Shown here piece by piece: positions 661 through 24,681 of a stretch of DNA of 28,316 nt (its first letter is position 1; each line of letters opens with the position of its first letter). The stretch comes from Candidatus Methanophaga sp. GoMg3.2 (lineage in GTDB: Archaea > Halobacteriota > Syntropharchaeia > Alkanophagales > Methanospirareceae), in the NCBI GenBank assembly GCA_013180565.1, contig QBUN01000422.1:1-28316 (forward strand). The letters are read 5' to 3'. The notes below the pieces were generated by a model. It saw only the letters and a list, made by a program, of their open reading frames with translations, had not been told where the DNA came from and did no database searches. The translations under genes were made by a program, and so were the position numbers.

Positions 661-662
661 TC

Positions 663-1945: not shown

Positions 1946-2003
1946 TTATAACTATACTGCCGCTCTATTTCCTTTTGTGCAGAAAATTCGTACTTCCACA
2001 TAT

Positions 2004-2040: not shown

Positions 2041-2245
2041 TTTGTAAATAGGGAACTGGACCTTGGCTTTTTGGATGAGAAATATTAAAGTACTAAAGCG
2101 ACTGGAGGAGAAAGCAGAAGCAGTCGCGATAAAAGGGAAAAGAAGTTATGGGCTTATTGCGAGGAAGATTGGAGATAAGGATAGGCTCGGCGCTTGCATC
2201 TATGATTTGAGCGATCTCGGCTTTCGCCTTCTGAGGGAACAGTAG
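2038..2245 (+). pseudogene. Archaeal P-loop ATPase remnant, N-terminus joined to C-terminus, ending in a DGR-target tail
   Basis: ATG 2038 opens a 16-codon frame, MFVNRELDLGFLDEKY, the classic N-terminus of archaeal ATPase_2-type proteins. It stops at 2086, and the adjacent +1 frame continues as LKRLEEKAEAV...KRSYGLIARKIGDKDRL...YDLSDL, resembling the C-terminus of the same family. The whole Walker A/B core of roughly 300 residues is missing. After YDLSDL the frame runs into LGFRLLREQ and a stop, which is the end of the FGE-sulfatase gene at 19502, not of an ATPase. This is a double-junction chimera and cannot be functional as an ATPase. Confidence 0.65.
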
Positions 2246-2260
2246 CCACTTATTACTTTA
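2216..2260 (+). repeat. 45-bp copy of the 3' end of the FGE-sulfatase/DGR target gene
   Basis: These 45 bases match 19473-19517 at all but two positions, covering the codons for LGFRLL-EQ, the TAG stop and the first bases downstream. The match therefore includes the end of the proposed DGR variable region and the untranslated flank. It is fused to the C-terminus of an ATPase remnant at a short shared CTCGG. Confidence 0.85.
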
Positions 2261-2290: not shown

Positions 2291-2335
2291 CTAAATAGGT
2301 AGAAGGTATACATTATATACAACAAGAGAGAGGAC

Positions 2336-2683
2336 CTATTTACTTGCAAAAAGGTTTGTATTGTGGTTTTTCAGCTCAGTCATATCAAACACCAAATACC
2401 CATCATTTCTTAATGCCGCTTTCACTTCCTCGCCCATCTTCTTTGCTATTAGCCCAAAATATTCCTCTCTCGCATCGTTAAACCCAGTGACGAACTTAGA
2501 TTTCTCTTTTAGCCCTTCGATAATCTTCTTTGCTTCTTTTACTCGTTCAAACTCGTGCCATTTGACTTCAAAACTGTATTTCTCTTCTACTTTCTCTATC
2601 TCTTCTTCCCTATCTATAAAATTTAGTGCTATGATACTTAGTATGTCATTACTAATATTAAAAGGGTGGTGGGCATGCTTCAA
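2336..2683 (-). pseudogene. Internally deleted archaeal ATPase (N- and C-terminal ends only)
   Basis: The minus-strand frame (115 codons, opening with TTG) has two recognisable parts. Residues about 22-38 read NFIDREEEIEKVEEKY, the N-terminus of archaeal P-loop ATPases. Residues about 39-108 read VKWHEFERVKEAKKIIEGLK, KSKFVTGFNDAREEYFGLIA and GYLVFDMTEL, typical of the C-terminal domain of that family. The Walker A, Walker B and sensor regions in between are absent, without a frameshift at the junction. The first 20 codons look like read-through into leader sequence, so the true start is uncertain. It may still make a small stable protein, but no ATPase activity is possible. Confidence 0.65.
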
Positions 2684-2743
2684 AAATATCTATTGTAGCA
2701 GGGATTTGACTTTGGAAAGAAGTTGTATAGCTAATCTTAAAAA

Positions 2744-2772
2744 CCACAAGATTACACGAGATTAACACAAGA
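2744..2772 (-). repeat. 10-bp-period repeat, inverted copy
   Basis: Read on the minus strand the units are ATCTTGTGTT, AATCTCGTGT and AATCTTGTGG, the same motif as at 2261-2290. The surrounding 2684-2862 stretch shows no credible gene. Confidence 0.5.
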
Positions 2773-2862
2773 TAAAAAGTTTAGGGAACATTTTTGGGCG
2801 ATAAGAGTTATCTTCAATTAAAGGTAATCTTTCGGAGATTATTTCCAGGCAACGAGAAGAGC

Positions 2863-3031
2863 GATGATGAAGACCTATTTTTTTGATACCCGCGCTTTGA
2901 TCAAACGGTATTTTAACAGGGCGAATAATACATGGTATGTTAAAATCGTTGTAAAAACACCAAAAGGAATCATACCTGTGAGCGAGGTCATATTTAATTC
3001 AAAAGGGGATATAATTGACGATGTGCTTTGA
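2863..3031 (+). pseudogene. PIN-domain fragment with a poly-T frameshift, fused to an unknown tail
   Basis: ATG 2863 gives MMKTYFF and then a stop inside a run of eight T (2877-2884). Removing one T would continue in frame as DTRALIKRYFNRANNTWYV, matching the VapC-type opening YFFDTSALVKRY. The frame then changes character to KIVVKTPKGIIPVSEVIFNS and ends at TGA 3029-3031; I do not recognise this tail. It is a frameshifted, truncated PIN remnant joined to another gene's end. Confidence 0.55.
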
Positions 3032-3083
3032 GGTAAGTTGAACTAAAATCAGGGGAATACGATATGATACGATATACCGAACA

Positions 3084-3182
3084 TTTGAAATTGAGACGGA
3101 AACTCATGAACTCGGCACTTATCCGGTGACCCAGCGTGAAGGGGAAGTGGTTATGGGCAATAATCCGTCATATTCACAATAG
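3084..3182 (+). pseudogene. FGE-sulfatase (SUMF1-like) domain fragment
   Basis: The short frame reads HELGTYPVTQREGEVVMGNN followed by PSYSQ and a TAG. The (K/R)YPVTQxEWExVMGxNPSY motif is diagnostic of formylglycine-generating-enzyme/sulfatase-modifying-factor domains. The intact homologue in this window has GRYEVTQKQWRAIMGDKPSH at 18952-19011. Only about 30 residues survive, with no start codon, so it is debris. Confidence 0.75.
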
Positions 3183-3267
3183 AGAAAATGGAATAACGGA
3201 AAACTATAAATAAAGAGGATAGATAATATACACAATCCGTGCTATCAAATCAAAAAAGGAATGAAAG

Positions 3268-3504
3268 ATGGAAAAATTTAATCTGACTGCTACTATATTG
3301 GAAGAAGAAGGCGTATATGTATCGAAATGTCCGGAGTTGAGCGTTGCAAGTTGCGGAGATACACCAGAAGAAGCACTTAGTAATTTGAAAGAGGCTGTAG
3401 AGCTCTATCTTGATAACGCCATTGCGTTAGGGCTTATTGGAGACGTAAAGATGGCTCTTACATCTACGCATAAATTCACGTCGATGATAGAGGTAACTGC
3501 ATGA
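3268..3504 (+). CDS. hicB: HicB-family antitoxin
   Basis: A 78-aa protein with the HicB layout: N-terminal strands FNLTATILEEEGVYVSKCPE, then the loop VASCGDTPEEALSNLKEAVE and the LYLDNA helix. The family is a partial RNase H fold that blocks HicA. A purine-rich AAAAAAGGA lies about 8 nt before the ATG. The stop overlaps ATG 3501 of the following hicA, which is frameshifted, leaving an apparently intact antitoxin without a functional toxin. No clear C-terminal ribbon-helix-helix is present, so autoregulation is doubtful. Confidence 0.88.
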   Translation: MEKFNLTATILEEEGVYVSKCPELSVASCGDTPEEALSNLKEAVELYLDNAIALGLIGDVKMALTSTHKFTSMIEVTA

Positions 3505-3742
3505 AGAAGCTCCCCGTGGTTTCTTCTGATGATGTGATCAGGGTATTGAAGAAAGCGGGATTTGAATATGCACCCAAGCGTGGCAAGGGCAGTCATACGG
3601 CATTTTACAAAATTGATGAGGAAGAGGACATAAATTGCTTGTTATCGTACCAAAACGGAGAGCGTTACCAAAAGGAACACTTTTAGCCATTCTTCAGCAA
3701 GCGAATTTATCGAAGGATAAGTTCACTTCGCTTTTGAAATGA
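3501..3742 (+). pseudogene. hicA: HicA-family toxin disrupted by a frameshift
   Basis: The frame from ATG 3501 reads MKKLPVVSSDDVIRVLKKAG and KRGKGSHTAFYKIDEEE, including the GSH catalytic histidine. Near 3621-3628 the reading frame shifts: the first frame runs off into a non-HicA sequence ending at 3686, while the other frame continues HKLLVIVPKRRALPKGTLLA, then ILQQANLSKDKFTSLLK and stops at 3740-3742. Joined, the two parts form a normal-length HicA of about 80 residues. One indel therefore separates it from an intact gene, so the decay is recent or a sequencing error is possible. Confidence 0.85.
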
Positions 3743-3883
3743 TGGAAGTGGAAAGAGTCATTACATAAGTTACTCCTATATGTCACGTTAGGGTCATTAT
3801 ATCGCGTACCATTTCATTTTTCTTCCATGATTTTTAGGTGCCTTTGACTGGGATTTTTCTCTATCCCTTACATTGATTTAATT

Positions 3884-3903
3884 TTTTCTGCGTTAATCTG
3901 TAT
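3884..3903 (+). repeat. 10-bp-period repeat, two units
   Basis: The units TTTTCTGCGT and TAATCTGTAT match the repeat at 2261-2290. It lies about 45 nt upstream of the CopG/BrnA-like antitoxin start. The rest of 3743-3949 has no recognisable gene. Confidence 0.4.
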
Positions 3904-3949
3904 CTTAAAAATCATTGAAAAATGCTACAGTTCTGGTAAATTATTATTC

Positions 3950-4255
3950 GTGAGTTCCCTTATACAATTAAAAATCGTAAAAAAAAGAAAATATAGCGAA
4001 ATGGGTAAGATACCACGGTTTGAGTGTATAGAAGAGGAAGAAGCGGAATTTTGGGATACGCACGATACAAAAGAGTTTACAGATGAATTTGAGCCCATAA
4101 ATGTAAAATTCGCTTATCCTCTGAAGCATAAGTAGCTGTTAACTATGGGGCGGGATGAAGTGATTTTCAATCAGGTGAAGAAATTAGCTGCAGGTGCTGG
4201 TGAAGAACCCAGTGTTCTCATTCGTACTTGGATTTTAGAGCATCTCAAGCGATAA
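3950..4255 (+). pseudogene. CopG/BrnA-like antitoxin interrupted by an in-frame TAG
   Basis: GTG 3950 opens a 61-codon frame containing IPRFECIEEEEAEFWDTHDT, the conserved opening of a CopG-type antitoxin family that pairs with BrnT-like toxins. A TAG at 4133-4135 ends it. The same frame continues without shift as LLTMGRDEVIFNQVKKLAAG and EEPSVLIRTWILEHLKR to TAA 4253-4255, which is exactly the missing ribbon-helix-helix C-terminus. So a single nonsense codon splits a protein of about 101 residues. An internal ATG at 4145 could still produce the DNA-binding half alone. TAG is the ordinary stop of several other genes here, so suppression is not presumed. Confidence 0.7.
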
Positions 4256-4361
4256 AAAAACAAATGATCTTACATTAATATAGGATTATATATGAAGAGT
4301 GAGAAGATAGTATTATTGTGGTGACTGTGATGGTTGTAAGAAGAATGATGCGGAATCAAAG

Positions 4362-4739
4362 ATGGAATCGTTGAAGCATATATATAGGCATAGCATCTCT
4401 GAGCAAGAAGTAGAAAAAGCCGTAAATGGGAGAATCCTGATACGAAGCACCACAAGAAAAGCAGAGAAGTTAAAAGAAGTTATATATGAGAAGAGGAAAG
4501 TGATATTAATAGAGATGGGAAAAGTAAAAATCGAAACTATGGCGGATTTGGAATCACTCCCTGAAGAGGAATGGGTAGAAGTACCTGAAGGACTACATGC
4601 CAAGTTTGTTTATAGTGTAGATCGCGTGAATAGCAAATTGACCATTACACTCCCGGAAGAGGTTGCTAAAAAGATAGGGAAGCGACTATGCGCTTCTTTT
4701 GAGGATGAGAAGATAGTTATACGAGAGATTAAGGGATGA
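4362..4739 (+). CDS. Hypothetical fusion ORF: BrnT/DUF4258-like part plus AbrB-like part
   Basis: The 125-codon frame has two parts. Codons 5-50 read KHIYRHSISEQEVEKAVNGR and ILIRSTTRKAEKLKEVIYEK, resembling the H..ISEEEVEEA core of BrnT/DUF4258 RNase-like toxins. Codons 52-125, from ATG 4515, read MGKVKIETMADLESLPEEEW and NSKLTITLPEEVAKKIGK, which could be a separate 74-aa antitoxin with a SpoVT/AbrB-like tail. The first codons (ESKMESL) are copied from a VapC: 23 bases at 4347-4369 are identical to 1202-1224 within vapC. The upstream half is therefore probably a truncated toxin and the downstream half the genuine gene. Functions are inferred from motifs only. Confidence 0.45.
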   Translation: MESLKHIYRHSISEQEVEKAVNGRILIRSTTRKAEKLKEVIYEKRKVILIEMGKVKIETMADLESLPEEEWVEVPEGLHAKFVYSVDRVNSKLTITLPEEVAKKIGKRLCASFEDEKIVIREIKG

Positions 4740-5078
4740 ATTCTCTGCTCCCTTGCCAAAAGAAAGCTAACGAAATCAAAGACTTCTGCGAGTTTAGCCT
4801 CTGAGAGACTTCTGATACATATAGCAAAGGATTTTGGACTGAGCAAGTATGAATTGTTCACGAAGAGATTATTAGAGTACTTAAAATCAAAGAAGAGCGA
4901 TTGTATGGCAGATAAACTCGAGCTTTTATCGCGACATGGTGTGTATTCTGCAAGCGAGTTAGAAGAAGCCATTAGAGAGGATAGAGTAACAGAACATCCG
5001 GGCTGGGAGGATTTGATAGTTATAGAAAATCTCGAAGAGAAAATTAAGAAGTTGGACAAAGAAATTGGAGCTATTTAA
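4740..5078 (+). CDS. Conserved-looking hypothetical protein, no clear start codon
   Basis: Immediately after the TGA of the previous ORF and in the same frame, an open frame reads LASERLLIHIAKDFGLSKYE, LFTKRLLEYLKSKKSDCMAD, KLELLSRHGVYSASELEEAI and ends in a basic/acidic coiled-coil-like tail before TAA 5076-5078. No ATG occurs before codon 55; TTG 4854 or a frameshift from ATG 4736 would be needed. The composition is clearly protein-like and the 3' end overlaps a TumE-like toxin frame, suggesting it is the antitoxin partner of that toxin. I do not recognise the family. Confidence 0.45.
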   Translation: MLCSLAKRKLTKSKTSASLASERLLIHIAKDFGLSKYELFTKRLLEYLKSKKSDCMADKLELLSRHGVYSASELEEAIREDRVTEHPGWEDLIVIENLEEKIKKLDKEIGAI

Positions 5079-5235
5079 AGTATATCAGGAACTTGATTTC
5101 TTAGACGTTTGGATTTCTATTTCTGGCAAGTATTCCTATTACTGGGTAAGGAGGCACAATGATGGGAAAATATATCGCCATGATAATGTTGTTTCTATAG
5201 GTAGGGGCGGTAACGAGAAACATCAGAGGGACTAG
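5065..5235 (+). pseudogene. TumE/DUF6516-like toxin fragment
   Basis: A frame from TTG 5065, overlapping the end of the previous ORF, reads LFKVYQELDFLDVWISISGK then YSYYWVRRHNDGKIYRHDN and stops at TAG 5233-5235. The YSYHWxxxHxDGxIYRHDNAPHH pattern resembles TumE-type (DUF6516) toxins, but the following histidine-rich part is degenerate (VVSIGRGGNE). At 56 codons it is roughly half the usual length, so it is probably inactive. Bases 5236-5450 show no further recognisable gene. Confidence 0.4.
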
Positions 5236-5447
5236 AGCAGTGGGATACGTTTTTTAGAACAATTCTTGGCAGACAGGGGGACTGCAATATCTTAGTTAGT
5301 GGGCTCTGCACATGAGGCGTACTTTATGTATTTCAATTGCACGATTATGGCTTGACTGATACAGTTCCAAAATCTTATACGTCTGGAATTGGTTGTGGTG
5401 CATAGTGGAGTTATGTAGTATGGAAATTGAGAAAGGCTACTGAAAGG

Positions 5448-5513: not shown

Positions 5514-8500
5514 ATGGCGAAGAAGAAACAGATAAGAAATGTATTGTGCTTTTTGGTTATGATTGGGATTTTTATGAGTCTGATGCCTGTTTCGGTCTTT
5601 GCCGTGAATGATAGTGATAATACCACAGGCGTATCAAATCCTTTAAATGCGTTAGAAAACACATTTACGGAAAAATCACCAAGCAGTGGTGATTGTGCGC
5701 CAGTACCCGATGCAGATCTGCCGGAGATATATCTAAATGATACGCAGGAATGTGTATTGAGCTGGGATTCCGGCAACGGTACTAATATCCTCTTTTCAAC
5801 AGACATTTCAAATGGTACACATGAAACGGTAAGCGCGCTTAGCTGCGATGTTTATGTTAAGATAGATGACCCTTGCTGTGTTGGATACCGGGTATATGTA
5901 GATGGTGCGTATCAATTTACAGAGGGCGGAGATGGAACAACACCCGATGGGTTTTGCGCGTTTTATGTGTGTGCTGGGACACATACGATAAAGATAACCA
6001 AGAACGGTCGTTCCGCATCAAAGACTAAAAATTTCCAGTGTGGTTATACCTACCGCTGGACCAGCATGCCCAATTGCTGGTGTGAAGATGGTGGTGGTAG
6101 TGATGATTGTAAATATCCTCCAACAGTCAAATTTGATAAGACAAAATATTACGAAGGGAATACAGTACACGCGACCGTGTCAACATCCCAGAGCTCGGTC
6201 TATTACAAAATCAAGGACTGTGGTGGTACGACTCGTAAAAGTGGATCTACGAGTAACGGCAAGAAAATCTCTTACACAATCCCCAAAGGTGCATCCAAAT
6301 GTTGTTATTGGCAGATTTGTTTTTACTGGGATGAGTATACTCCACCATGGATGGCCTTAGCAGGAGCAGGTGGGGAGGTTACTGCACTGTCTTATGACTG
6401 CACCAAGTGCTACAATTTCTACGTGTGTCCCGTACAAACTTGTGAGGTATATGTTAAAATCGAGGACCCTTGCTGTGTTGGATACAGGGTATATGTAGAT
6501 AATGTGTATCAATTTACAGAGGGCGGAGATGGAACTACACCAGATGGATACTGCGCGTTTCATGTAAAAGAAGGAACGCATACGCTGAAGATAACTAAGA
6601 ACGGCCGCTCTGCCTCGAAAACCATAAAATTCGAGTGTAATATTGTCTACCGCTGGGTCAGCATGCCAAAGAACTGGTGCGGTGATGGTGAGGCATATGT
6701 TGAAATAAAAGACAAATACTGTAAGGGGTACGAGGTCTATGTAGATGGCAAGTATAAATTAACTGAGGGTCGGACCGGAACTCCTGACGGAAACTGCGGG
6801 TTTTTTGTGGGTGAGGGAACACAAACAATCGAGATACGCAAGAATGGCCGATCCGCATCTCTTAATAAGTACTTCGACTGTAGTTATAGATATGTCTGGG
6901 ACAGCATGCCCGATAACTGGTGTGATCCCTGTTATGACCCACCTATTGTTACGTTTGATAACCCACCGGATTACCAAGGAGACAAACCGAAATATTCCGG
7001 AGGAGATAAACTGAGCGCTACTGTATCAACGTCCCAAAGTTCAGTCTATTACGAAATTAAGGACTGTGGTGGCACGGTTCTTACAAATGGATATATGAGT
7101 AATGCTGGAAAGATCTCGTACACCATTCCCACCAGTGTACCCACATGTTGCTACTGGACCATCTGCTTCTACTGGAGTGGCGATGGTGGTGACTGGTTAG
7201 CAACAGGAGTGGATCCTGCGCAGTATTATGATTGCATTATATGCTACACATTCGAGGTCTGTCCTATCTGCACGGCGAACGTCAAAATAGATGATGATAC
7301 ATGTGTCGGCTACAATGTTTATGTAGATGATGTGTATCTACTCACAGAGGGTGTAGGTGAAACTCTGGACGGGTACTGCTCATTTGATGTGACAGAAGGC
7401 GTGCACAGCATTGAGATACGCGATAACGAGTGCTTTGCATCTATTACGAGGAATTTTGAGTGTGGTTCGACCTACCTATGGGTGAGCATGTCCGATAACT
7501 GGTGCAAATGCAAAAACTGCCCGTCCGAAGTTAGATTTGAGGGTACTGCGAAAACAGATGAGCTTGCTGGTTTGGTGTGCTATAAAACCTATTACTGTGA
7601 GGTGATCGCTGACCGGATACTATATGATCCAGATAATACATTACAGGTCGGGAATGTGTATACCGTTGGTTATGGTGATGAACCCAAAAATATAGTGGCC
7701 GGCGATAAAGTTGTAGTCAATGGCACTTATTATCATAATTGTGGTCCTCTTGGTGCTTATGGGCGTATCTGTGGCGATCTGTGGAAAGACTTGCCCGACC
7801 TAATCATAGATGATATTAAGTTGCCTTCCAAAACCGTTTGTCTTGGTGACTTGATACCAATCACAGTGACGGTAAAAAACATTGGTGGTGAGAAAGCAAA
7901 CCAATCGGTGGTAAAATACTATGTGGGCAACAAATACATTGATCGGGATGTTGTGCCCAGCTTAGTTCCCAATGCCACGTCAAACCAGACATTTAACTGG
8001 ACTGCGAATAGTTGTGGCAATATACCGGTCATGGCAATAGCAGATGCTAATCATACGGTACAGGAATGTAATGAGAGCAATAACGATAAACAGAAGCGCA
8101 TAGAAGCGAGTGGTCCTGATTTGATCACGCATATATGGCCTATTGGGGCAACAGGTACAGTTTGTTTGGGCGAACCGATAACATTCACCGTGACCGTTAT
8201 AAACACAGGAGATTGCACGGCCGGTCAATCGGTGGTAAAATACTATGCGGGCGGTGAATACATAGATTCCGAGCTCATCCCGAGCTTGAGCCCCGGTGCA
8301 TCTTCTACCCAGACGTTTACCTGGACTGCAAGTAGCTGTGGCAATGTATCCGTCAGGGCAGTGGCGGATGCCAACCACGAGGTACGTGAATGCAATGAGA
8401 ACAATAACGATAAAGCGAAGAGCATCGAAGTGGATGGTCCTGACCTGATTATCCAGGATAGTACCTTGCCATCGGGAAAGATATGCCTCGGGCAGCCTGT

Positions 8501-14090: not shown

Positions 14091-16955
14091 ATGACGAAAA
14101 AGGAGATAATGAAGGTATTGGTTTGTTTTGTTCTATTAGTGGTAACGAGCACAATGCCAGCTTCAGTTTTTGCACTGTCCGATGACATAACAAGTGTAAG
14201 TGATAATTCTGTTCGTGGTTCTAATGAAATGGTCTCCGCACTGCAAGCAGACGAAGAAGTCAAATTTGACGGAACAGCAATTGAGTACTTCTCGTCTACA
14301 GGCACTTGTAGCTGGAAAGTACGAGTAGATACGATTGTTAGCGGACCGTCAGAGCGGCAAGGGCATACGGTGACGGTCGCGCTATGGACAGGAGATTCTG
14401 GCGAGTTTCCTTCTGGATCTATGGATCCTGAGATCGGACCAGGCGACAAAGTAGGCGTTTTCGGGTTGTACGTAGGCGACGATTATGTGACGCTATCAGG
14501 TTCTGAAAAGTATTATATAAAGGTAATAGCGACGGGCAGTCCTACGGCTAATTTCGACTATGCACCAAAGGATATTTTTGCGAATCAGAAGGGCACCTTC
14601 GATGCATCCTCAAGCTATGACACAGATGGAGCGATAACAAAGTACGACTGGGATTTTGGTGATGGCACGACAGGGACAGGAGTAATCGTCACGCATTCAT
14701 ATACTGCGCAGGGGAAATACAATGTCGTGTTAACGGTTACAGACGACGATGGCTTAACGAATACAAAGTCGAAGGCGATTACGGTTGAAGAGACAGAGAA
14801 TGCTATTTATGTCCCGGATATTTATCCAACGATTCAACAAGCGGTAGATGCTGCTGAATCAGGAGAGACGATAATCGTAAGAGCTGGGAGCTATACGGAG
14901 AATGTGGTTGTGAACAAACCGCATTTAACGATTCGGTCTGAGAACGGAGCGGGGGCAACGATTGTTCAGGCTGCAAATTCAAATGATAAAGCTTTTGAAG
15001 TGACTGCGGATTATGTGTCTGTTAGTGGATTCACATTTAAAGGGGCGAATTACACAGAAAAAGCTGGAATATACCTTACTAATGCAAATTATTGTAATGT
15101 TTCGGATAATACTGCATATGCGAACTATGTTGGGATCTACTTATGGAAGTCCAACAATAACACGGTAATTAAAAATACTCTATGTAGTAATGACAATGCA
15201 GGCCTTCGATCATATCATTCAAGTGGTAATATCATTACCAAAAACAATGTATCCCGCAATTACTGGAACGGCATAGTTATTGATGGGGCCTATAATAGAG
15301 TATCGGATAACGCTGCATCGTCTAATAGCTACTCAGGCATCCTTGTCAGCACGGGTAGTAATAACATAATATGTAACAATGATATAAGGTCAAACAAATA
15401 CTATGGCATCTGCTTCAGCCCATTGTGGGATTCGTGCAATAACATAATTTATCTTAACAGCTTTGTGGATAATAGTGCTAATTTCTATTCTAACAATGCA
15501 ACTAATATCTGGAACTCCCTTTCAAAAATAACCTACACGTACAATGGCAATACGTACACAAGCCATTTAGGTAACTATTGGGATGATTACATCGGACCGG
15601 ATGCAAACGATGATGGGATAGGTGATACTGCTTACAGCATAAATTCCGATAAGGACATTTATCCTTTATTAATGCCTGTGGAGAACTACATTAAAAAGCA
15701 AACAATAACTATCGACACTACGCCTCCTGAAGTGGCAATTATCTCGCCAGAAGAGGGAGTAACATATGAAATAACTGAAATAGCGCTGGAGGTAGCTGCA
15801 AACGAACCGATAGCAAAATGGAGCTACAACCTTAACGGCGCAGGACCATTCTCTTTCACGCCTAACATAACATTAACAGCTAGTGAAAGAGGGAACTCAT
15901 TGGTAGTATATGCAGAAGACTTTGCGGGAAACATAGGAGTAGGTACCGTCAGCTTCAGGGTTTTTATAATAGCTCCAACCATCTCGAATGTAAAAGTAAG
16001 TCCAACATATGCACTTCCTGGTAATTCAATAATCATCTCCGCAGATGTATTTGATTCTTCTGGAGTAAGATTGGTCAATGCTTTCGCTACTAAAGGTGGA
16101 GAGGGCGTATGCACAATTTTCATGTTAGGACCCGGAGGAACAGGTGGATTTTATACGGGAACCTGGCGCACAATGATCTCCACAGAAGGAGGGATTTATA
16201 ATATCACTATACGTGCAACAGACACAGAGGGAAACGAGGCATTAGCGAAGCCATGCAAAGTTGAGATAGCTAGTGTAGCAACAGGGTCTATCTCAGTCAC
16301 TTCTGAACCATCAGGTGCCACAATAGAGTTAGAGTGTTTTGTTGGCCCGACAATAACAACACCCTACACAGTTACGGATGTTCCCGTAGGTACTCATACA
16401 CTAAAACTCACTCTCGATGGCTATTGGGATTGGTCAACAAATGTGCACGTAATTGCGGGCACTACTTCATCAGTACATGCGACATTGGCTCCGATGGCGG
16501 TACAGCCTTCAACAACGCCTCAACCGTCTATTGGAAAAACGCATACGGGAGAAGATCTTTCGTCAATTCCAGCGCAATCGGGAATGATACCTGCAACTGA
16601 GCAGAAAGTGGAAGAAATAGGAGGTACACCATCAGGAGGGGTAACCGGAATAAATCTCTGGGCTCTTTACAATGGTGCCTGGACTAAGGATCCCGCAGCC
16701 ATATATTATGGTGAGTGGACGTATATGCTGCTCTACCTTGATCAGGGGCAATCGGTTTTAATGGGGGTGACATATCCAAGTGGGTGGGTAGACACGAAAG
16801 ATTGGGGATATTTGTCCCAGGGATACCACTATTACAGATGGATCGCCGATGCTGTAGGATGGCATAAGATTGTTGCTGATGGAAGCATAACTGAACAGAG
16901 TAACGAGATAGCCGTCTACGTATGGCCTATAGGAAACAAACCCCAAAGGAGGTAA
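14091..16955 (+). CDS. Secreted beta-helix (NosD-like) surface protein with PKD and PEGA domains
   Basis: The 954-aa protein starts with a signal peptide (MTKKEIMKVLVCFVLLVVTS, AxA-type end at VFA). Then come an OB-like domain (about 54-145, EEVKFDGTAIEYF...GDKVGVFGLYV); a PKD domain (149-234, YDWDFGDGTTG and VVLTVTDDDG); a right-handed parallel beta-helix of the NosD/CASH type (236-534, opening PTIQQAVDAAESGETIIVRA and closing GNYWDDY...DIYPLL); Ig-like domains (545-730); a PEGA domain (731-801, VTSEPSGATIEL); and a C-terminal beta domain rich in W and Y. Such beta-helices commonly bind or process polysaccharide, but no catalytic residues can be assigned. It lies 45 nt after the giant protein and 3 nt before the next gene, so co-transcription is nearly certain. 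No membrane anchor is visible. Confidence 0.88.
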   Translation: MTKKEIMKVLVCFVLLVVTSTMPASVFALSDDITSVSDNSVRGSNEMVSALQADEEVKFDGTAIEYFSSTGTCSWKVRVDTIVSGPSERQGHTVTVALWTGDSGEFPSGSMDPEIGPGDKVGVFGLYVGDDYVTLSGSEKYYIKVIATGSPTANFDYAPKDIFANQKGTFDASSSYDTDGAITKYDWDFGDGTTGTGVIVTHSYTAQGKYNVVLTVTDDDGLTNTKSKAITVEETENAIYVPDIYPTIQQAVDAAESGETIIVRAGSYTENVVVNKPHLTIRSENGAGATIVQAANSNDKAFEVTADYVSVSGFTFKGANYTEKAGIYLTNANYCNVSDNTAYANYVGIYLWKSNNNTVIKNTLCSNDNAGLRSYHSSGNIITKNNVSRNYWNGIVIDGAYNRVSDNAASSNSYSGILVSTGSNNIICNNDIRSNKYYGICFSPLWDSCNNIIYLNSFVDNSANFYSNNATNIWNSLSKITYTYNGNTYTSHLGNYWDDYIGPDANDDGIGDTAYSINSDKDIYPLLMPVENYIKKQTITIDTTPPEVAIISPEEGVTYEITEIALEVAANEPIAKWSYNLNGAGPFSFTPNITLTASERGNSLVVYAEDFAGNIGVGTVSFRVFIIAPTISNVKVSPTYALPGNSIIISADVFDSSGVRLVNAFATKGGEGVCTIFMLGPGGTGGFYTGTWRTMISTEGGIYNITIRATDTEGNEALAKPCKVEIASVATGSISVTSEPSGATIELECFVGPTITTPYTVTDVPVGTHTLKLTLDGYWDWSTNVHVIAGTTSSVHATLAPMAVQPSTTPQPSIGKTHTGEDLSSIPAQSGMIPATEQKVEEIGGTPSGGVTGINLWALYNGAWTKDPAAIYYGEWTYMLLYLDQGQSVLMGVTYPSGWVDTKDWGYLSQGYHYYRWIADAVGWHKIVADGSITEQSNEIAVYVWPIGNKPQRR
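16944..16952 (+). promoter_or_regulatory. Strong Shine-Dalgarno for the third operon gene
   Basis: AAAGGAGGT is a near-perfect complement of the 16S rRNA 3' end. It overlaps the last codons of the previous gene and lies 6 nt before ATG 16959, fixing that start. Confidence 0.85.
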
Positions 16956-16958
16956 AAG

Positions 16959-19502
16959 ATGAAAAAGGACGTATTGGTTTGGTTGGTCGTATTAGCGATT
17001 ATGATGTGCACATTATCGACTTCAATTTTTGTATTGAATGAGGGGATAGCAACCGTGAGTGGTAATTCTTATTCTGGTTTTAACCAAAAGGTCACCGCAC
17101 TTCAAACCGATCAGGAAGTTAAATTCAACGGAACAGCAATTGAGTACTTCTCGTCTACTGGTTCACGTGGCTGGAACGTACGAGTAGATACGATTGTTAG
17201 CGGACCGTCTGAGCGGCAAGGTCATACGGTGACGGTCGCGCTATGGTCAGGAGATTCTGACGAGTTTCCATCCGGGCACATGGATTCTGAGATTGAACCA
17301 GGCGACAAAGTAGGCGTTTACGGGTTGTACGTAGATGATGATTATGTGACGCTTTCGGGGTCCGAGGAGTATTACATAACTAAAACATCTGTAAGCAATC
17401 AGCCATCGGTGACCGTACGCTATCCAAACGGCGGCGAATCCATATCAATTGGAACGCAAGTGCAGATAAGCGCACACGCAACCGATGATAATGCAGTAAC
17501 TGGTGTATCCTTCTATTATTCATGTGATGGTGGTTCCAATTGGGATATATTAGGTGAAGGAGCTCGAATTTCAGGTACTGCTATAGGTGGAGTTTGGAAT
17601 AGAACTTGGAGCACAAAAGGATTGAGTGCAGGCACGAATTATATGATAAAAGCAGTTGCGAATGATGGTACATCAACAAGCGAAGATCGGTCAGATAGTA
17701 CGTTTTCGTTAGTTGGTACATTAACACCAGTAGAGGAATGGAACAGGACCTTTGGCGGTACCGGCGATGATTTTGCATTTGCAGTCCAGCAGACTTCTGA
17801 TGGTGGTTACATCCTTGCTGGGGCAACAGAATCGTATGGTGCTGGTGACGCGGATTTCTGGCTAGTGAAAACCGATTCAAAGGGATGTGAGCAATGGAAC
17901 AAGACCTTTGGTGGCATTAACTCCGATTCGGCAAACTCTGTCCATCAGACCTCTGATGGGGGCTATATCATTGCTGGTACTACGTACACGTACGGCGCGG
18001 GTGCCGGTGATTTTTGGTTAATTAAAACAGATTCCAACGGAAACAAGCAGTGGGACAAGATCTTTGGTGGTACTTCCTGGGAAGTAGCACATTCTGTCCA
18101 GCGGACTTCAGATGGAGGTTACATCCTTGCTGGTGAGACGGCAGGAGATGCTTGGCTGGTGAAGACTGATCCAAACGGAAATATGCAATGGGAGAAGACC
18201 TTTGGAGGTGCAGATTGGGATATAGCTCATTCCGTACAGCAGACCTCAGACGGAGGTTACATCCTTGCTGGGTCTACTAAATCATATGGTGACGATGGTG
18301 CTTGGGATGGCTGGCTGGTGAAGTCTGATCCAAACGGGAACCAGCAGTGGGTAAAGACCTTTGGAGGAATTGGCTATGGGACTGTAGAATCGGTCCGGCA
18401 GACTTCAGACGGAGGTTACATCCTTGCTGGCGAGACAGCTTCTGATTTTTGGCTGGTGAAGACAGAGTCTAATGGAAACAAGCAATGGGAGAGGACTTTT
18501 GGAGGCGCTTACTTGGACGGAGCAAAAGCAGTCCAACAGACGAGAGACGGCGGATATATCCTTGCAGGCTCAAGGTTGACCTACGGTGCGGGTTCATGGA
18601 ATGGTTTGCTGGTGAGGACAGATTCCAACGGAAACGAGCTATGGGAGAAGACCTTTGGCGGACCTAGCGATGATTGGGTAAAACCGGTCCAGCAGACTTC
18701 AGATGGATGTTACATCCTTGCCGGCGGCACGGACTCGTACGGTGCGGGAGCCTCGGATTTCTGGCTGATAAAGGTAAAAGAAGGGGAAGCAGAGGCCTTA
18801 GGAGAAAATACAATCACAAACACCATCGGCATGGAGTTCGTGCTGATACCCGCAGGCAAGTTTGAGATGGGCTCGCCGTCAGATGAAGAGGGTAGGTATG
18901 AAAATGAAGGACCCGTCCATCATGTAAATATCGAAAAGGCGTTCTACATGGGCAGATATGAGGTCACGCAGAAGCAGTGGCGTGCGATCATGGGCGATAA
19001 ACCTTCCCATTTCAAGGGCGATGATCTGCCGGTTGAGCAGGTTTCATGGGACGATGTGCAGGAATTTATCAAGAAACACAATGAGAAAGAAGGTATAGAC
19101 AAGTATCGGCTGCCATCTGAGGCAGAATGGGAATATGCAGCGCGGGCTGGCACCACCACAAGATATTCATTCGGCGATTCAGGATCAAAACTTGGCGATT
19201 GTGCTTGGTATAATGCTAATTCGGGCGAAAAAACACATCCAGTCGGTCAGAAGAAGCCCAATTCATTGGGGCTTCATGACATGCACGGTAATGTCTGGGA
19301 ATGGGTGCAAGATTGTTGGCATTTCGACTACAACGGCGCCCCCACTGACGGCAGTGCATGGGAAGGAGGTGGTGCCTCTCGGGTCTTCCGCGGCGGTTGC
19401 TGGGACCGCAGCGCCGGGTTCTGCCGGTCTGCTTACCGCTACCCCCGCGGCCCTCGCGACCGCTTCAACGCTCTCGGCTTTCGCCTTCTGAAGGAACAGT
19501 AG
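16959..19502 (+). CDS. Secreted propeller protein with C-terminal FGE-sulfatase/lectin domain, probable DGR target
   Basis: The 847-aa protein has a signal peptide (MKKDVLVWLVVLAIMMCTLS), an OB-like domain almost copied from the previous gene (53-143), an Ig-like domain (146-253, VRYPNGGESISIGTQVQISA), seven repeats of W-x-x-TFGG...QTSDGGYILAG...FWLVKTDSNG (261-609) that predict a seven-bladed beta-propeller, and an FGE-sulfatase domain (617-847: MEFVLIPAGKFEMGSPSDEE, RYEVTQKQWRAIMG, YRLPSEAEWEYAARAG, LGLHDMHGNVWEWVQDCW). In catalytic FGE the end segment has a Cys pair; here the first is Arg (817) and the second is Cys822, so enzyme activity is doubtful. The last 40 codons have DGR variable-region features, described separately. 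The likely role is a surface-displayed ligand-binding protein whose tip can be diversified. Confidence 0.88.
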   Translation: MKKDVLVWLVVLAIMMCTLSTSIFVLNEGIATVSGNSYSGFNQKVTALQTDQEVKFNGTAIEYFSSTGSRGWNVRVDTIVSGPSERQGHTVTVALWSGDSDEFPSGHMDSEIEPGDKVGVYGLYVDDDYVTLSGSEEYYITKTSVSNQPSVTVRYPNGGESISIGTQVQISAHATDDNAVTGVSFYYSCDGGSNWDILGEGARISGTAIGGVWNRTWSTKGLSAGTNYMIKAVANDGTSTSEDRSDSTFSLVGTLTPVEEWNRTFGGTGDDFAFAVQQTSDGGYILAGATESYGAGDADFWLVKTDSKGCEQWNKTFGGINSDSANSVHQTSDGGYIIAGTTYTYGAGAGDFWLIKTDSNGNKQWDKIFGGTSWEVAHSVQRTSDGGYILAGETAGDAWLVKTDPNGNMQWEKTFGGADWDIAHSVQQTSDGGYILAGSTKSYGDDGAWDGWLVKSDPNGNQQWVKTFGGIGYGTVESVRQTSDGGYILAGETASDFWLVKTESNGNKQWERTFGGAYLDGAKAVQQTRDGGYILAGSRLTYGAGSWNGLLVRTDSNGNELWEKTFGGPSDDWVKPVQQTSDGCYILAGGTDSYGAGASDFWLIKVKEGEAEALGENTITNTIGMEFVLIPAGKFEMGSPSDEEGRYENEGPVHHVNIEKAFYMGRYEVTQKQWRAIMGDKPSHFKGDDLPVEQVSWDDVQEFIKKHNEKEGIDKYRLPSEAEWEYAARAGTTTRYSFGDSGSKLGDCAWYNANSGEKTHPVGQKKPNSLGLHDMHGNVWEWVQDCWHFDYNGAPTDGSAWEGGGASRVFRGGCWDRSAGFCRSAYRYPRGPRDRFNALGFRLLKEQ
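17735..18785 (+). repeat. Seven propeller-blade repeats
   Basis: Seven coding repeats of about 46-53 residues each start W-(N/E/D/V)-(R/K)-(T/I)-FGG and contain TSDGGYILAG or a close variant and a closing (F/G/A)W-LVKTD strand. Lengths differ mainly by presence or absence of a SYGAG loop. Seven is the commonest blade number for beta-propellers. Confidence 0.8.
19380..19502 (+). other. Putative DGR variable region (VR) at the 3' end of the FGE-sulfatase gene
   Basis: Residues 808-847 read RVFRGGCWDRSAGFCRSAYR then YPRGPRDRFNALGFRLLKEQ, fitting the frame RVxRGGxWxxxxxxCRSAxR...R...xGFRL of DGR-diversified C-type-lectin-fold targets. From 19380 to 19484, 25 of 35 codons end in C, and the residues at expected variable sites are NNC codons (TTC, TGC, GAC, CGC, AGC, TTC, TAC, TAC, CCC, CGC, GGC, CGC, GAC, CGC, TTC, AAC, CTC), as expected from template AAC codons mutated at adenines. 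Only 7 of the 105 bases at 19381-19485 are A, in an otherwise AT-rich gene. The CGG-CTTTCGCC end could be the initiation-of-mutagenic-homology site. The template and reverse transcriptase are not in the window. Confidence 0.75.
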
Positions 19503-19544
19503 CCACTTACTACTTTACCACTTTACCACTTACATGCTATGTTA

Positions 19545-19617
19545 CGAGGGCGTTGCCTGAAGGCGGTGCGTGTGAAGCCGCACAGTCGAAGGTGCAACGC
19601 CGATGACGCCCACCTCG
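19545..19617 (+). other. GC-rich structured element downstream of the VR
   Basis: GGCGTTGC (19549-19556) pairs perfectly with GCAACGCC (19594-19601) around a 37-base interior that itself holds the hairpin GTGCG-TGTGAAGC-CGCAC (19566-19583). CGAGG (19545-19549) can alternatively pair with CCTCG (19613-19617). This nested arrangement begins 43 nt after the stop. It may be a structured RNA, a terminator-proximal element, or a DGR-associated hairpin; no known RNA family is recognised. Confidence 0.5.
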
Positions 19618-19962
19618 AAGCGGGCACGAAAAATCCGCAGTAATAGATATGCCAAAAAATGCGTTACGAAATGCTAAAACCTGTTAAAAACGTTTATATT
19701 GGAATACGAAGAAAGAACGGTATTCTCTGACGCCGTAAAGCCCAATTTTTTGGCAGACATGGAGATACTGCGATGGATGAGCTAGTTCTTTCTTTTAACG
19801 AAAGAACGAATATACCTGGACGGTTGATCATCGCCCGACTGTAATGCCGCAGACAGAACCAATCAGGAAGACAGGAAAAAAATAGAGACGAAAGCTACAA
19901 ATTAGAATCTTGACGTAAAGAATGCCTTACCAAAGAAATAATATATCATACGTTATTTACAA
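19618..19962. other. Intergenic stretch without recognisable gene
   Basis: No credible reading frame or known RNA was seen. It holds one perfect hairpin at 19785-19807, GTTCTTTC-ttttaac-GAAAGAAC, and the arm AGAAAGAACGG also occurs at 19711. A run of seven A follows at 19876-19882. No reverse-transcriptase coding remnant was found here. Confidence 0.5.
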
Positions 19963-19996
19963 CGAGAACATCCCCTAAAGTATGATACCCGGAAGT
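19963..19996 (+). promoter_or_regulatory. Conserved leader of archaeal ATPase remnant, copy 2
   Basis: AAAGTATGATACCCGGAAGT before ATG 19997 repeats the leader at 2004-2040 with few changes, including the spaced AGTATG direct repeat. The inverted-repeat arm CATACT is altered to CATCCC here. It may be a promoter or operator that came with the duplicated gene start. Confidence 0.4.
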
Positions 19997-20152
19997 ATGT
20001 TTGTAAATAGGGAACTGGATCTTGGTTTTTTGGATGAGAAACATAAATCAAACAAATCGGAATTAATAATCAGCTATGGTAGTAGACGGGTGGGTAAAAC
20101 GCGGCTGCTGCAAGAGTTCGTTACTCACCAGAACGAGTTATCTGTATATTGA
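19997..20152 (+). pseudogene. Archaeal P-loop ATPase, truncated after Walker A
   Basis: ATG 19997 opens a 51-codon frame, MFVNRELDLGFLDEKH, followed by SELIISYGSRRVGKTRLLQE, and stops at TGA 20150-20152. GSRRVGKT is the Walker A motif of archaeal ATPase_2-type proteins, which are normally 350-450 aa. The rest of the gene is absent. The first 15 residues are nearly identical to the remnant at 2038, showing both derive from one duplicated gene. Confidence 0.75.
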
Positions 20153-20339: not shown

Positions 20340-21917
20340 CTAAAAAGATTTTTTAGTTTCTGTTTTCTCTTTCTCCGCATTAATCCGCTCCAGCAGCTTA
20401 TCCGCAGGCTCCCAGTCAGGAGCGTTACGGGCTTCTTCTAGCTCCTTTTCTGAAAGCAGTTCACCCTCAAATGCTTTCTTCAAAATGCTCTGGCGCAGAG
20501 CTTCTGATTTTTGTAGTGATTCCGCTATGGTTGCTTCCATTTTGTCGCAGACTGATAAGCGGGTTTCGATTTCGCAGACGATTTGGTGTTGTTCTTGGAT
20601 GGAACAAATAGGCATTATTAAACTTTTAATTTCACCAGAATTTATGTTATTTACGCCACTTGTAGATTTAGCTTTTGACTGTATTTGATTCCTTAAACAA
20701 ATGGAGGATAAACAGTTTAACAAATATTTTGAATCAATAATACTTAAAGGTCTAAGCCTTATTAAATAGCCAGCGTAAAGAAACTCTTCATCTTGTTTGT
20801 GAATTAGAGCACATTTGCCCACTAAAGCAATACTACCATTAGACCTAATTGTTAATATATCTCCCCCCTTCAGTTTGTATATTTCATTTTCTTCGTCTGA
20901 AAAAGAAGCAAATTTTAAATCTTCTTTATCTATAATACCATTCCCGATATTAGGAATCCGTAAAACTGCTTTTCCAGTAACATCGTAAGAACATTTTTTT
21001 GATGTTCCATATTTGGGTTCTTCTATAATTTGTCCTAATCTACTCCATCCCCCTCCTCCCGGCAATTCCGGCAACTCCTTCAATTCCGCCTCACTCAAAG
21101 GCGGCAGTTCCTTCGGCTTCTTCGGTCTTGACGGTTTCTTCCCCGCTTTTCCTTTATCTTCCCAACCTTTTACAGCTTTTTCCCATTCATCCAGTTGTTT
21201 CTGATAATGCTTTTCCCGTTCTTCTTTAATTTGCAGAAGCAGTTCTTCGGCTGATGGTAAATCGGTCTGTTCTGCCCGCCACTTTCTGGTAAGTTCCCCC
21301 TCAAACGCCTTTTTCAAAACAGCCTGGCGGTAGATTTTAAGCTGTTTCTGCGCTTTTTTCAGGTTTGCTATGCCGTTGTCCAAGTCGCTGAGAAGCTTTT
21401 CGATTTTGGCGACTATGGCTCGTTGTTCGGGGAGAGGAGGGATTGGTATTTCTATCTTTGAAAGATTCTTTCTAGAAATACGTTTCCTAGTTGTACCACT
21501 TTTGTACTTATCTACTTCTACTCTGAATATTGGAGAATTGATAGAGTATAAAAGATACTTATTAAGAATATAATTAGTATTAGGTCTTACAATGCATACA
21601 TCAACAGCCGTAACATATCTTTTGTTTCTATCAAAAGGGACTAGACAAGCTCTACCAAGCGGATCAGGCAATCGTGCAATTAGAATATCATTTTTTTCCA
21701 AATAAGTGCAATTAAGATCTTTGCTTGTTTTTAAAGTTAGAAATTTATGGGATTTGTCCTTAAAAACACCATCACCGATATCTGCTAACTGAATAAGACG
21801 TACTTCACCTTGCGGATCTTGATCTTTACTTTCTACCCAATCACCATCACAGAAAATACCACCATCTGAAATTAAATCATCAATCAAAGAGTATGTCCAA
21901 TTAAATTTATATTCCAT
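20340..21917 (-). CDS. hsdS: Type I restriction-modification specificity subunit
   Basis: The start is ATG 21917 (525 aa), one base past the HsdR stop; an upstream in-frame ATG inside hsdR is less likely. HsdS holds two target-recognition domains that read the two halves of a bipartite DNA site, separated by coiled-coil spacers. Here TRD1 spans about 1-160 and ends IPIPPLPEQRAIVAKIEKLL, the first long helix runs 165-215 (AVLKKAFEGELTRKW), TRD2 spans about 300-445, and the second conserved block reads SIQEQHQIVCEIETRLS with QSILKKAFEGELLSEKELEE. Both halves are complete, so the subunit looks functional. Its normal partner HsdM is not adjacent. The overlap-like spacing to hsdR indicates one transcript. 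Confidence 0.93.
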   Translation of the reverse strand: MEYKFNWTYSLIDDLISDGGIFCDGDWVESKDQDPQGEVRLIQLADIGDGVFKDKSHKFLTLKTSKDLNCTYLEKNDILIARLPDPLGRACLVPFDRNKRYVTAVDVCIVRPNTNYILNKYLLYSINSPIFRVEVDKYKSGTTRKRISRKNLSKIEIPIPPLPEQRAIVAKIEKLLSDLDNGIANLKKAQKQLKIYRQAVLKKAFEGELTRKWRAEQTDLPSAEELLLQIKEEREKHYQKQLDEWEKAVKGWEDKGKAGKKPSRPKKPKELPPLSEAELKELPELPGGGGWSRLGQIIEEPKYGTSKKCSYDVTGKAVLRIPNIGNGIIDKEDLKFASFSDEENEIYKLKGGDILTIRSNGSIALVGKCALIHKQDEEFLYAGYLIRLRPLSIIDSKYLLNCLSSICLRNQIQSKAKSTSGVNNINSGEIKSLIMPICSIQEQHQIVCEIETRLSVCDKMEATIAESLQKSEALRQSILKKAFEGELLSEKELEEARNAPDWEPADKLLERINAEKEKTETKKSF

Positions 21918-21918
21918 C

Positions 21919-24681
21919 CTACACCACCAACGCCGCATTCATTTCACTAATAACAGTATCCATTCCATCACCAAAGAGCTGCCACATCTTTCCACGTCCT
22001 CCATATGCATCAAACGGTGTGTAATCCAGATCATCCAGCTCAATATGAAAACTGGTAGCAATATGTTCTTTTATCATCCTCAGCCAGTTCATCTGCTCTT
22101 CATTAAACTTTAATGCACCTGCCTGCTTTTCAAACACCCAGTTCCGGAAATTCCTGTCCACTGTTTTATCATATGCTGTCAGTTGAGCATCAATACCAGC
22201 TACCCGGCGAATAAGAGAAACAAGAGCAACAAGCTCATTTTTCGGGCTTTTGCCGTTTACGGTTTCAAGTTGCTCGTATGCCTGCCATACCTGCAGCGGT
22301 GCAAGCAGGGGTTTATCGGCTTTCAATTTATCGAGAACATCTTTTATCATACTGAAAGTCAACTCTCGAAGTTTATACGGCTGATCATAGAATATCATAA
22401 GCGCAGTTATTTCGTCTTTATGCTCTTTTAGGTACTCGGAAAAGTCTTTTACCATTTCTCCTGCTTTATCTAGTGCATCCTTGCCCCATTCCACCTTTGT
22501 AACAACATCAATATTCACAGTATCAATAATCTGCTCATGAACCCTGCGGACATTTTCAATGTAGTCATTGAGATCACCGTTAAATGTCGAACTTGCGGTT
22601 TTGCTTAAGATTTCTTTTGCCTGCTCCAGAGCTTCCGTTTCTGTTACTTCTGGATTATCACGCTTTATCTCATCCGCTTTTTCTTCGATTTTATCAGGAT
22701 CATAAGCATTCAAGAGGTCTTTGACAGTCTGATTTATGGTCTTACCTTTTGCCTTTTCTGTATATCTTTGCTTTTCTTTGTCCGTAAGTTGTTTTTCCAA
22801 TCTCGAAAGGCGACTTGCAAGTGACATGAACAGGTCTTCATCCTGTGCGCCCATTGTTACTGCGTCCAGCAAATCCGAAAATGGTGTGGCACGTTTTCGC
22901 TCCAGAGGGCGGCTGTCTGTCTTGACCGATTTGGTAACGCCGACCGCATCAACAATGACAAAATGCGTCTTCGCTGATACTGTCGAAGGGGTGACTTTTC
23001 GCAGGTCGTCAAAGCCGAAGGTACGTGTACCGCGACCTTTCATCTGCTCGAAATAGTTTTTGCTTTTTACATCGCGCATAAATAGCAGACACTCAAGCGG
23101 CTTTACATCTGTACCTACAGAGATCATATCAACAGTGACCGCGATTCTAGGATTATAGGCGTTTCTGAACTGCGCGAGCAGTGATTTCGGGTCCTCTTCT
23201 GTTTTATATGTGACTTTCTTACAGAAGTCATTGCCTTCATTAAATTCCTCGCGGACTATCTGGATAATATCATCTGCATGGCTGTCGCTTTTGGCAAAGA
23301 TAAGAGTCTTTGGGACTTCGGCTCTGCCCGGAAAGAGCTCCGGCAGTTTGTTTTTAAACGTACAGATGATATTCCTTATCTGACTGGGATTCACAACGTC
23401 TCTATCCAGATCCTTTTTTGTATATGCCACTTCCTCATCCAGTTGTGCCCACCGCCTCTTTCTGCTCAGCTTTTCGCGTTTATCTACATACTCCTTTGCT
23501 TTTAGTTTCGCGCCGTATTGTGATATTTCAGTCTCTATTGTGTACACATCGTATCCAACATTAACGCCATCAGCTACCGCTTCTTCATGTGAATATTCAC
23601 TTACTATATTCTCATGGAAAAACCCGAAAGTCCTTTTATCCGGTGTGGCAGTTAACCCGATAAGAAAGGCATCGAAATAATCTAGCACTTGCTGCCACAG
23701 GTTGTATATGGAACGGTGACATTCATCTATAACAATAAAATCGAACTTTTCTATCGGTATCTGAGCATTATAAACAACCGGCATCGGCTCTTTTGGTTGC
23801 CATTCGTTCTCGTTCGGATTTCGCTCTTCTATCTCTTCAGCCAGGTCTTCTCCTTTTAATATAGAATAGAGCCGCTGGATCGTACTAATGCATACCTGAC
23901 TGTCCGAAGCAATATAGTGAGAGCGCAACCGTTGCACATTGTACAGTTCCGTGAATTTACGGTTATCGTCAGAAGGCAGATATGTCATAAACTCCTGCTC
24001 TGCCTGTTCACCGAGGTTTTTGGTGTCAACCAGGAATAATATCCGTTTCGCATCGGCGAATTTAAGTAAACTGTAGATAAAGGTAATTGCAGTGTATGTT
24101 TTACCGGCACCAGGAGCCATCTGTATCAAAGCTCGTGGCTTGTTCGCCTTGAATGATTTTTCAAGGTTATTTATCGCCGTTATCTGGCAGTCTCTCAAAC
24201 CCGCTTCTGGCAGTGCAGGTATATCCAACAGTCTTGCTCTTAATGATTTGGTATCATTCAGCCATGCCACGTACGTTTCCGGTCTATGAAAAGAGAATAC
24301 CGGTCTTGAACGCGGATGTGGATCTCGGCAATCGGTAAAGTTGGTTATAATACCTGTACTTGCATAAACCAATGGTAGCGGGTCGTTGTCCAGGTATTTG
24401 AGTTTGCTTTTTGCATACCCTTCCGTCTGGCTTTCATGAATTGTAAGTCGGTACCCCTCATCTTCTCGTTTCGCCTCTAAAATCCCTACTGGTTTCCGGT
24501 CTACAAATAACACGTAGTCCGCAGGCCCCGCATCAGTCTGATATTCGCGGACTGCAACACCAACGCTCTCGGTCCAGTCAATTTTATTCTTATCCTGTAC
24601 TGCCCATCCGGCGGCATGGAGCTGTTTATCAATATTGTCTCTTGCTATCTGTTCAGGGGATTGGTTTACATAATCCGCCAT
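21919..24681 (-). CDS. hsdR: Type I restriction endonuclease/translocase subunit
   Basis: HsdR (920 aa) cuts DNA after ATP-driven translocation. It begins with a PD-(D/E)xK nuclease domain: D55 in GPADYVLFVD, then E69-x-K71 in GILEAKRE. The SF2 helicase motor follows: Walker A MAPGAGKT (residues 188-195), DECH at 319-322, TATPDKR at 344-350, and the QMKGRGTRTF motif VI in the second RecA-like lobe. A helical C-terminal domain (EcoEI R-type) runs from about residue 640 to the end. All catalytic motifs are intact. It directly precedes hsdS, but there is no hsdM before it: upstream is a 232-base gap and then an unrelated gene on the same strand. Confidence 0.95.
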   Translation of the reverse strand: MADYVNQSPEQIARDNIDKQLHAAGWAVQDKNKIDWTESVGVAVREYQTDAGPADYVLFVDRKPVGILEAKREDEGYRLTIHESQTEGYAKSKLKYLDNDPLPLVYASTGIITNFTDCRDPHPRSRPVFSFHRPETYVAWLNDTKSLRARLLDIPALPEAGLRDCQITAINNLEKSFKANKPRALIQMAPGAGKTYTAITFIYSLLKFADAKRILFLVDTKNLGEQAEQEFMTYLPSDDNRKFTELYNVQRLRSHYIASDSQVCISTIQRLYSILKGEDLAEEIEERNPNENEWQPKEPMPVVYNAQIPIEKFDFIVIDECHRSIYNLWQQVLDYFDAFLIGLTATPDKRTFGFFHENIVSEYSHEEAVADGVNVGYDVYTIETEISQYGAKLKAKEYVDKREKLSRKRRWAQLDEEVAYTKKDLDRDVVNPSQIRNIICTFKNKLPELFPGRAEVPKTLIFAKSDSHADDIIQIVREEFNEGNDFCKKVTYKTEEDPKSLLAQFRNAYNPRIAVTVDMISVGTDVKPLECLLFMRDVKSKNYFEQMKGRGTRTFGFDDLRKVTPSTVSAKTHFVIVDAVGVTKSVKTDSRPLERKRATPFSDLLDAVTMGAQDEDLFMSLASRLSRLEKQLTDKEKQRYTEKAKGKTINQTVKDLLNAYDPDKIEEKADEIKRDNPEVTETEALEQAKEILSKTASSTFNGDLNDYIENVRRVHEQIIDTVNIDVVTKVEWGKDALDKAGEMVKDFSEYLKEHKDEITALMIFYDQPYKLRELTFSMIKDVLDKLKADKPLLAPLQVWQAYEQLETVNGKSPKNELVALVSLIRRVAGIDAQLTAYDKTVDRNFRNWVFEKQAGALKFNEEQMNWLRMIKEHIATSFHIELDDLDYTPFDAYGGRGKMWQLFGDGMDTVISEMNAALVV

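Follow-up and report, generated by a model that had tools for sequence, protein, structure and literature searches.

The window analysed here, a 28,316-nt stretch of contig QBUN01000422.1 of Candidatus Methanophaga sp. GoMg3.2, carries on its plus strand a gene whose 3′ end forms the variable region (VR) considered below, hereafter the window VR (Table 1). Compared loci are designated by L-numbers and genomes by G-numbers, G001 and G002 being two Methanophagales isolates. The VR sits at the 3′ end of an FGE-fold gene, as the FGE-sulfatase domain reaches residue 844 of 847; this fold is a variant of the C-type-lectin fold. The solved chains nearest to the domain by sequence are PvdO (5hha, E 2.2e-43) and then Treponema denticola variable protein 1 (2y3c, E 1.4e-33). 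An earlier note on this DNA had described the product as a propeller-lectin protein: the FGE-sulfatase assignment follows from Pfam, but Pfam names only this domain and Big_7, and a propeller is suggested only by visual inspection of the internal repeats.

Table 1. Features of the window associated with the orphaned target gene.
Feature	Position	Strand	Basis or remarks
Target gene, 847 aa	16959..19502	+	ORF list; Pfam Big_7; internal repeats; C-terminal FGE-sulfatase domain
FGE-sulfatase domain, residues 626-844	18834..19490	+	PF03781, E 1.6e-52
Variable region (VR), 33 codons	19389..19487	+	Aligns gap-free with the template repeats of related DGRs from archaea
CCACTTACTACTTTACCACTTTACCACTTAC motif, conserved downstream of the stop codons of DGR target genes	19503..19533	+	Alignment of 11 chosen flanks
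Candidate hairpin behind the VR	19549..19601	+	Conserved in 11 aligned flanks
Frameshifted, stop-containing relic of the N-terminal part of the HRDC accessory gene	19681..19873	+	tblastn, two colinear pieces
Detached copy of VR 3′ end and flank, ending LGFRLLREQ and then a stop	2207..2260	+	54 bp, 91% identity to 19464-19517

The starts of the target gene and of its neighbour (17008-17307 and 14149-14448) are 81% identical across 300 bases, so a duplicated N-terminus is probably common to both. Genes for type I restriction specificity and R subunits lie behind the target gene on the minus strand (20340-24681). The first part of the window (1-5400) is degenerate: its open frames are short and it contains broken pieces, including the VR tail copy listed in Table 1; a broken repeat at 2005-2088 copies 19964-20047.

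The base composition of the gene changes sharply at its end. Positions 19380-19484, which encode the peptide RGGCWDRSAGFCRSAYRYPRGPRDRFNALGFRLLKEQ, contain 7 A per 105 bases, have C as the last base in 25 of the 35 codons and show a G+C content of 0.72. Seven is the minimum for all 105-base windows of the plus strand, reached by those starting at 19368-19382, and the lowest count on the minus strand is 13. Elsewhere in the target gene each such window holds at least 17 A (windows starting before 19300), and C-ending codons reach at most 13 of 35 (windows starting before 19280). The A-poor, C-ending block reported in the earlier note is thus real. The RGG-W/CRSA/GFR frame, to which that note also pointed, is present but not distinctive: a loose RGG...GFR pattern occurs, in a few cases at odd places, in 90 of the 120 homologues listed out of 7998 scored. 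Judged from these alignments, the frame is ordinary FGE-sulfatase consensus, and what is unusual lies at the DNA level, in the NNC codons and the conserved synonymous sites.

The same VR frame was found in two intact archaeal cassettes of diversity-generating retroelements (DGRs), L265 (G452) and L326 (G478), both with the order target, HRDC, Avd, reverse transcriptase (RT) and template. The L265 proteins gave matches to HRDC (E 1.9e-20), bAvd (2.8e-19) and RVT_1 (8.7e-19), and its RT contains the motifs PIGSLTSQ and YMDD. The SQ motif marks RTs of DGRs, while SP is found in other RTs. A conserved tail accompanies the A-rich template in related archaeal DGR loci. Mismatches between template and VR were strictly confined to adenines in four of five pairs from such loci: they occupied 23 of 27 template adenines and none of 72 other positions in L265, 14 of 33 and 0 of 66 in L326, 19 of 26 and 0 of 73 in L224, and 15 of 27 and 0 of 72 in L227. 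In the fifth pair, a second L224 gene, they occurred at 9 of 26 adenines and 4 of 73 other positions. Compared with the L265 template, the window VR differs at 21 of 27 adenines and 10 of 72 other positions, and it differs from that of L326 at 9 of 66 non-adenine positions; both templates belong to other species, for which such non-adenine mismatches are expected, though this is no proof. Adenine specificity is accordingly shown for the relatives and not for the window copy, since no cognate template was found in the Methanophagales genomes searched.

The relic of an HRDC gene lies some 180 bp downstream of the target gene's stop codon. With the HRDC protein of L265 as query, two segments of the window aligned, in adjacent reading frames, at 19681-19791 (40.8 bits) and 19784-19873 (32.3 bits), while the best of 100 shuffled windows scored 28.9 bits. 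HRDC pieces also follow the VRs of L002, L004, L321, L322 and L323, and a weak match (E 0.12) follows one VR of L228; in L322 and L323 the template tail comes directly after the truncated HRDC gene. When 53 Methanophagales genomes were searched with the same protein, 35 matched, in most cases by no more than the HRDC domain of a long frame, and the N-terminal part was present in seven (G001, G002, G034, G035, G039, G040 and G048). The frameshifted relic, located directly behind the VR, documents loss of the DGR core in cis. The earlier note had proposed a DGR target whose RT and template lie elsewhere or were lost; its view of the gene as a target is strengthened by the adenine-specific differences in intact DGRs that share the VR frame and by this relic, which also gives substance to the option of loss.

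The flank between the VR and the relic is itself conserved. Within the candidate hairpin, changes on both sides were seen at two of 15 predicted pairs among the 11 aligned flanks, and the single-strand fold of the window sequence is no better than that of shuffled sequences (z −0.60; 51 of 200 as good). The flank consensus CGTGCGAAGCCG contains GCGAAGC, which as DNA folds into a mini-hairpin of unusual stability; at this place (19549-19601) the window reads GTGAAGC. Rfam at gathering thresholds gave no match in the window, L224, L265, L326 or L323, which argues against remains of a group II intron in the flank.

Neither a template nor an RT was found within the 28-kb window, as the earlier note had stated. 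Template-like copies with up to three mismatches were absent, nor did a repeat search reveal any; tblastn with the L265 RT gave no match at E up to 10, and no Avd match was better than E 1.8. With neither a DGR-type RT nor an A-rich template found, and with the accessory HRDC gene reduced to a broken remnant, the locus is classed as an orphaned DGR target rather than as a DGR. We consider it likely that the feature is the VR of such a target, located in an FGE-sulfatase domain, and that the DGR core was lost in cis.

Alternatively, the gene could be an active remote target whose VR is rewritten in trans by a DGR RT and a cognate template situated elsewhere, on the chromosome, a virus or a plasmid. 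Remote DGR targets have been described (PMC4891356, in its accessible text). The 53 Methanophagales genomes yielded no cognate template in searches with template patterns: at up to three mismatches the first pattern matched three of them, G001 and G002 through their VRs and G018 by an unrelated chance match, and the second matched none. The DGR-RT profile had matches in 26 of the 53 genomes, at DGR level only in G028 (518 bits; next 199.5). This single DGR (L140 193-2710, contig 138), placed at a contig end, comprises an SQ-motif RT, a different template and another target with a VR-like C-terminus. Absence from a single Methanophagales bin is weak evidence, because the bins are fragmented and their completeness is not given, and it gains weight beside decayed relics. 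PF00078 gave 36 matches in six genomes; of the 26 whose loci were read, 18 showed a QG..SP motif, eight no readable motif and none SQ. The Avd model produced 31 matches below the cut-off in 17 of the 53 genomes, none of them in G001 or G002. The family phrog_1423 was set aside, being a general RT family.

In IMG/VR the template patterns had no match, the FGE domain and the archaeal DGR RT gave one unconfirmed stretch each, and nothing was confirmed in the template and RT scans. Seven cyanophage records in a phage collection matched the FGE part, covering 23-25% of the query. Nine AAC-dense stretches among the compared loci were inspected as template candidates: those of L002, L003, L004 and L152 read as asparagine-rich repeat-like protein and those of L085 and L010 as low-complexity sequence, so these six were discarded, and the stretches in L053, L059 and L025 are templates that adjoin RTs of bacterial DGRs.

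Templates persisting apart from any RT lend some plausibility to rewriting in trans. Among 392 genomes of the phylum, a template pattern (up to three mismatches) occurred at five places in four genomes. Three of the five, in G192, G255 and G323, are noncoding templates. The second G192 match is a shortened noncoding template-like piece (L224, near 6881-7010) beside the intact template, and the match in G142 lies inside a gene. No DGR RT accompanies the template and tail in the stretches read of G192 (contig of 4,211,468 bases), G255 (4,137,337 bases) and G323; the DGR-RT profile detected two RTs in G192 and one fragment in G255, all with the QG..SP motif, and nothing in G323. In Methanosarcinales, templates with the conserved tail of about 170 bases and no RT gene were located at L224 9558-9850, L225 9333-9600 and L227 6388-6660. 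With the G192 template and tail as query, 34 of 185 genomes of its order matched, many of them via the VR part alone (up to four candidates scored per genome). Rfam at gathering thresholds does not recognise the tail, and the RNA model R1 built from the tail has no match in the window. The only Methanophagales matches of R1, in G034 and G040, were dropped as independent evidence, since both were training sequences of the model; blastn independently supports the tail in these two genomes.

Comparison with relatives bears on when the VR was rewritten. With one genome per species, the four top relatives among the best 80 of 286 confirmed stretches were Methanophagales, two from G001 (86% and 81%) and two from G002 (77% and 74%). 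In the domain upstream of the VR, the window differs from L002, L003 and L004 at 43 of 192, 53 of 200 and 67 of 191 third positions, with 18-27 first- or second-position differences each. Within the 33 codons of the VR the pattern is shifted: first positions differ 10, 10 and 9 times, second positions 8, 10 and 11 times and third positions 3, 2 and 5 times. The one-sided Fisher test on the pooled comparisons (p 7e-10) serves as a guide only, because all three share the window sequence. Against L001 the differences number 4, 1 and 2, too few to tell, and the shift is faint.

The VR block is present in six of the 53 Methanophagales genomes, at 12 places. A codon table was built from 11 VRs, comprising the window VR and ten of the 12 places (G002:C43, with an insertion, and G035:C92 were left out). 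At least three bases were found in 28 of 99 columns (L323b also left out); 23 of these 28 are among the 34 columns with A in the L265 or L326 template, and three are third positions. Codon 28 has T as its last base in the window and C in the other ten VRs. Codon 22 is CCT, as in the L265 template, and CCC in nine of the ten other VRs.

Twelve of the 15 codons classed as variable are identical in the window and L001, despite differences at 42 of 201 upstream third positions (about 21%), which argues against brisk present rewriting. The earlier note had counted conserved NNC codons in homologues against its own reading; this was observed to a mild degree in the nearest relative. Seven of 99 VR bases separate the window from L001, and codons 26-28 hold five of these seven (5 of 9 bases there, 2 of 90 elsewhere; Fisher p 3e-5, the region having been chosen post hoc), a pattern expected from a short 3′ homing tract. 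These data fit rewriting mainly before the window and L001 split, with perhaps one short 3′ tract afterwards. On balance, continuing rewriting in trans appears distinctly unlikely.

The VR and its flank are common to otherwise different genes, such as those for NACHT proteins, with homology extending past the VR. In two G001 genes (L228) VR and 3′ flank are 79-80% identical to the window, and blastn (E up to 1e-5) aligned nothing of L090 or L093 upstream of 19370. Identity between the window and L001 is 97-98% over 19321-19440 and only 83-95% in earlier 60-base steps of the FGE domain. Such blocks, together with an FGE consensus that itself contains the variable sites, might be explained by gene conversion or the transfer of blocks between FGE genes, combined with ordinary selection on the binding face, with no DGR ever acting on the window copy. 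Conversion, however, copies whole blocks and does not limit differences to the first and second positions of NNC codons, and we regard this explanation as highly improbable. Block conversion between genes is nevertheless likely to have taken place as well, and may have moved blocks already diversified by a DGR.

For the orphaned target, we infer past retrohoming at the window copy, deletion of the core, surface exposure and ligand binding. An ancestor would have carried a complete DGR beside the gene, with target, HRDC protein, Avd, RT, template repeat and conserved tail. Copying of the A-rich template RNA, error-prone at its adenines, would have given a mutated cDNA that then replaced the 3′ end of the target gene, turning AAC codons of the template into NNC codons and leaving non-adenine positions fixed. 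Avd, RT and template would later have been lost in cis and the HRDC gene reduced to a fragment, while the target gene stayed open with its binding face presumably frozen or rarely altered.

A wider, still doubtful proposal is that archaeal DGRs of this lineage act by hit and run, with recurrent deletion of the core that leaves short footprints with shared junctions, while the receptors stay frozen or are rewritten only when an RT and template return. Such footprints would consist of the VR, the truncated HRDC gene and, from the template tail, its 3′ end. On visual inspection, the HRDC start is joined to the tail near the same point, behind different VRs, in four loci of G005, G192, G323 and G357, and the Methanophagales genomes G034 and G040 share another junction.

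Several known systems resemble the window in part, as far as the accessible text of the cited reports goes. Degenerate DGR loci of Thiohalocapsa PB-PSB1 likewise retain targets, in that case putative sensor proteins, with the RT or template missing or pseudogenised; this bacterium, unlike the Methanophagales, where none of the window type was found, keeps one complete locus per DGR class (PMC10907252). Treponema denticola shares an HRDC accessory gene, an FGE-like target (2y3c), remote targets and remnants in isolates lacking the core, but it is bacterial and has an accessory gene placed between template and RT, unlike the order in L265 and L326 (PMC4891356). The DGR of the archaeal virus ANMV-1, with RT, Avd and target, is also tied to methane-oxidising archaea; it is a viral cassette beside tail-fibre genes, whereas the window holds an FGE target without a cassette (PMC4372165). 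Adenine mutagenesis and an element just behind the VR that is required for homing are known from the complete, active cassette of Bordetella phage BPP-1, where the hairpin was demonstrated experimentally; that of the window is only conserved (PMC3240598). Further DGR literature includes PMC8144416 and PMC7159879. No paper joining diversity-generating retroelements with Methanophagales was found; subscription titles were thinly covered, and no priority is claimed.

The window VR is best read, from sequence comparison, as a further case of the known DGR targets, in a Methanophagales (ANME-1) relative. DGR-type targets are now placed on contigs of ANME-1 bins, the earlier ANME-1 report being, in its accessible part, of a virus only (PMC4372165). 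Beyond mere absence, a gene relic shows that a DGR core can vanish while the target gene stays open. Genes combining a TIR or metallophosphatase part with NACHT and FGE parts and ending in a DGR-type VR were observed at L228 12779-16600 and 8056-11448, L321 8932-12249 and L322 9063-12434; the L228 pair (G001) encodes proteins of 1130 aa, with the metallophosphatase part, and 1273 aa, with the TIR part. The Methanophagales NACHT-FGE genes are predicted to encode receptor-like proteins with a diversified sensor. With NACHT proteins that carry TIR or phosphatase parts among the related targets, the idea that past hypermutation produced a repertoire of immune-type receptors in archaea becomes testable, and, if DGRs of this lineage do act by hit and run, TIR-NACHT-FGE and metallophosphatase-NACHT-FGE receptors would be kept as frozen variants.
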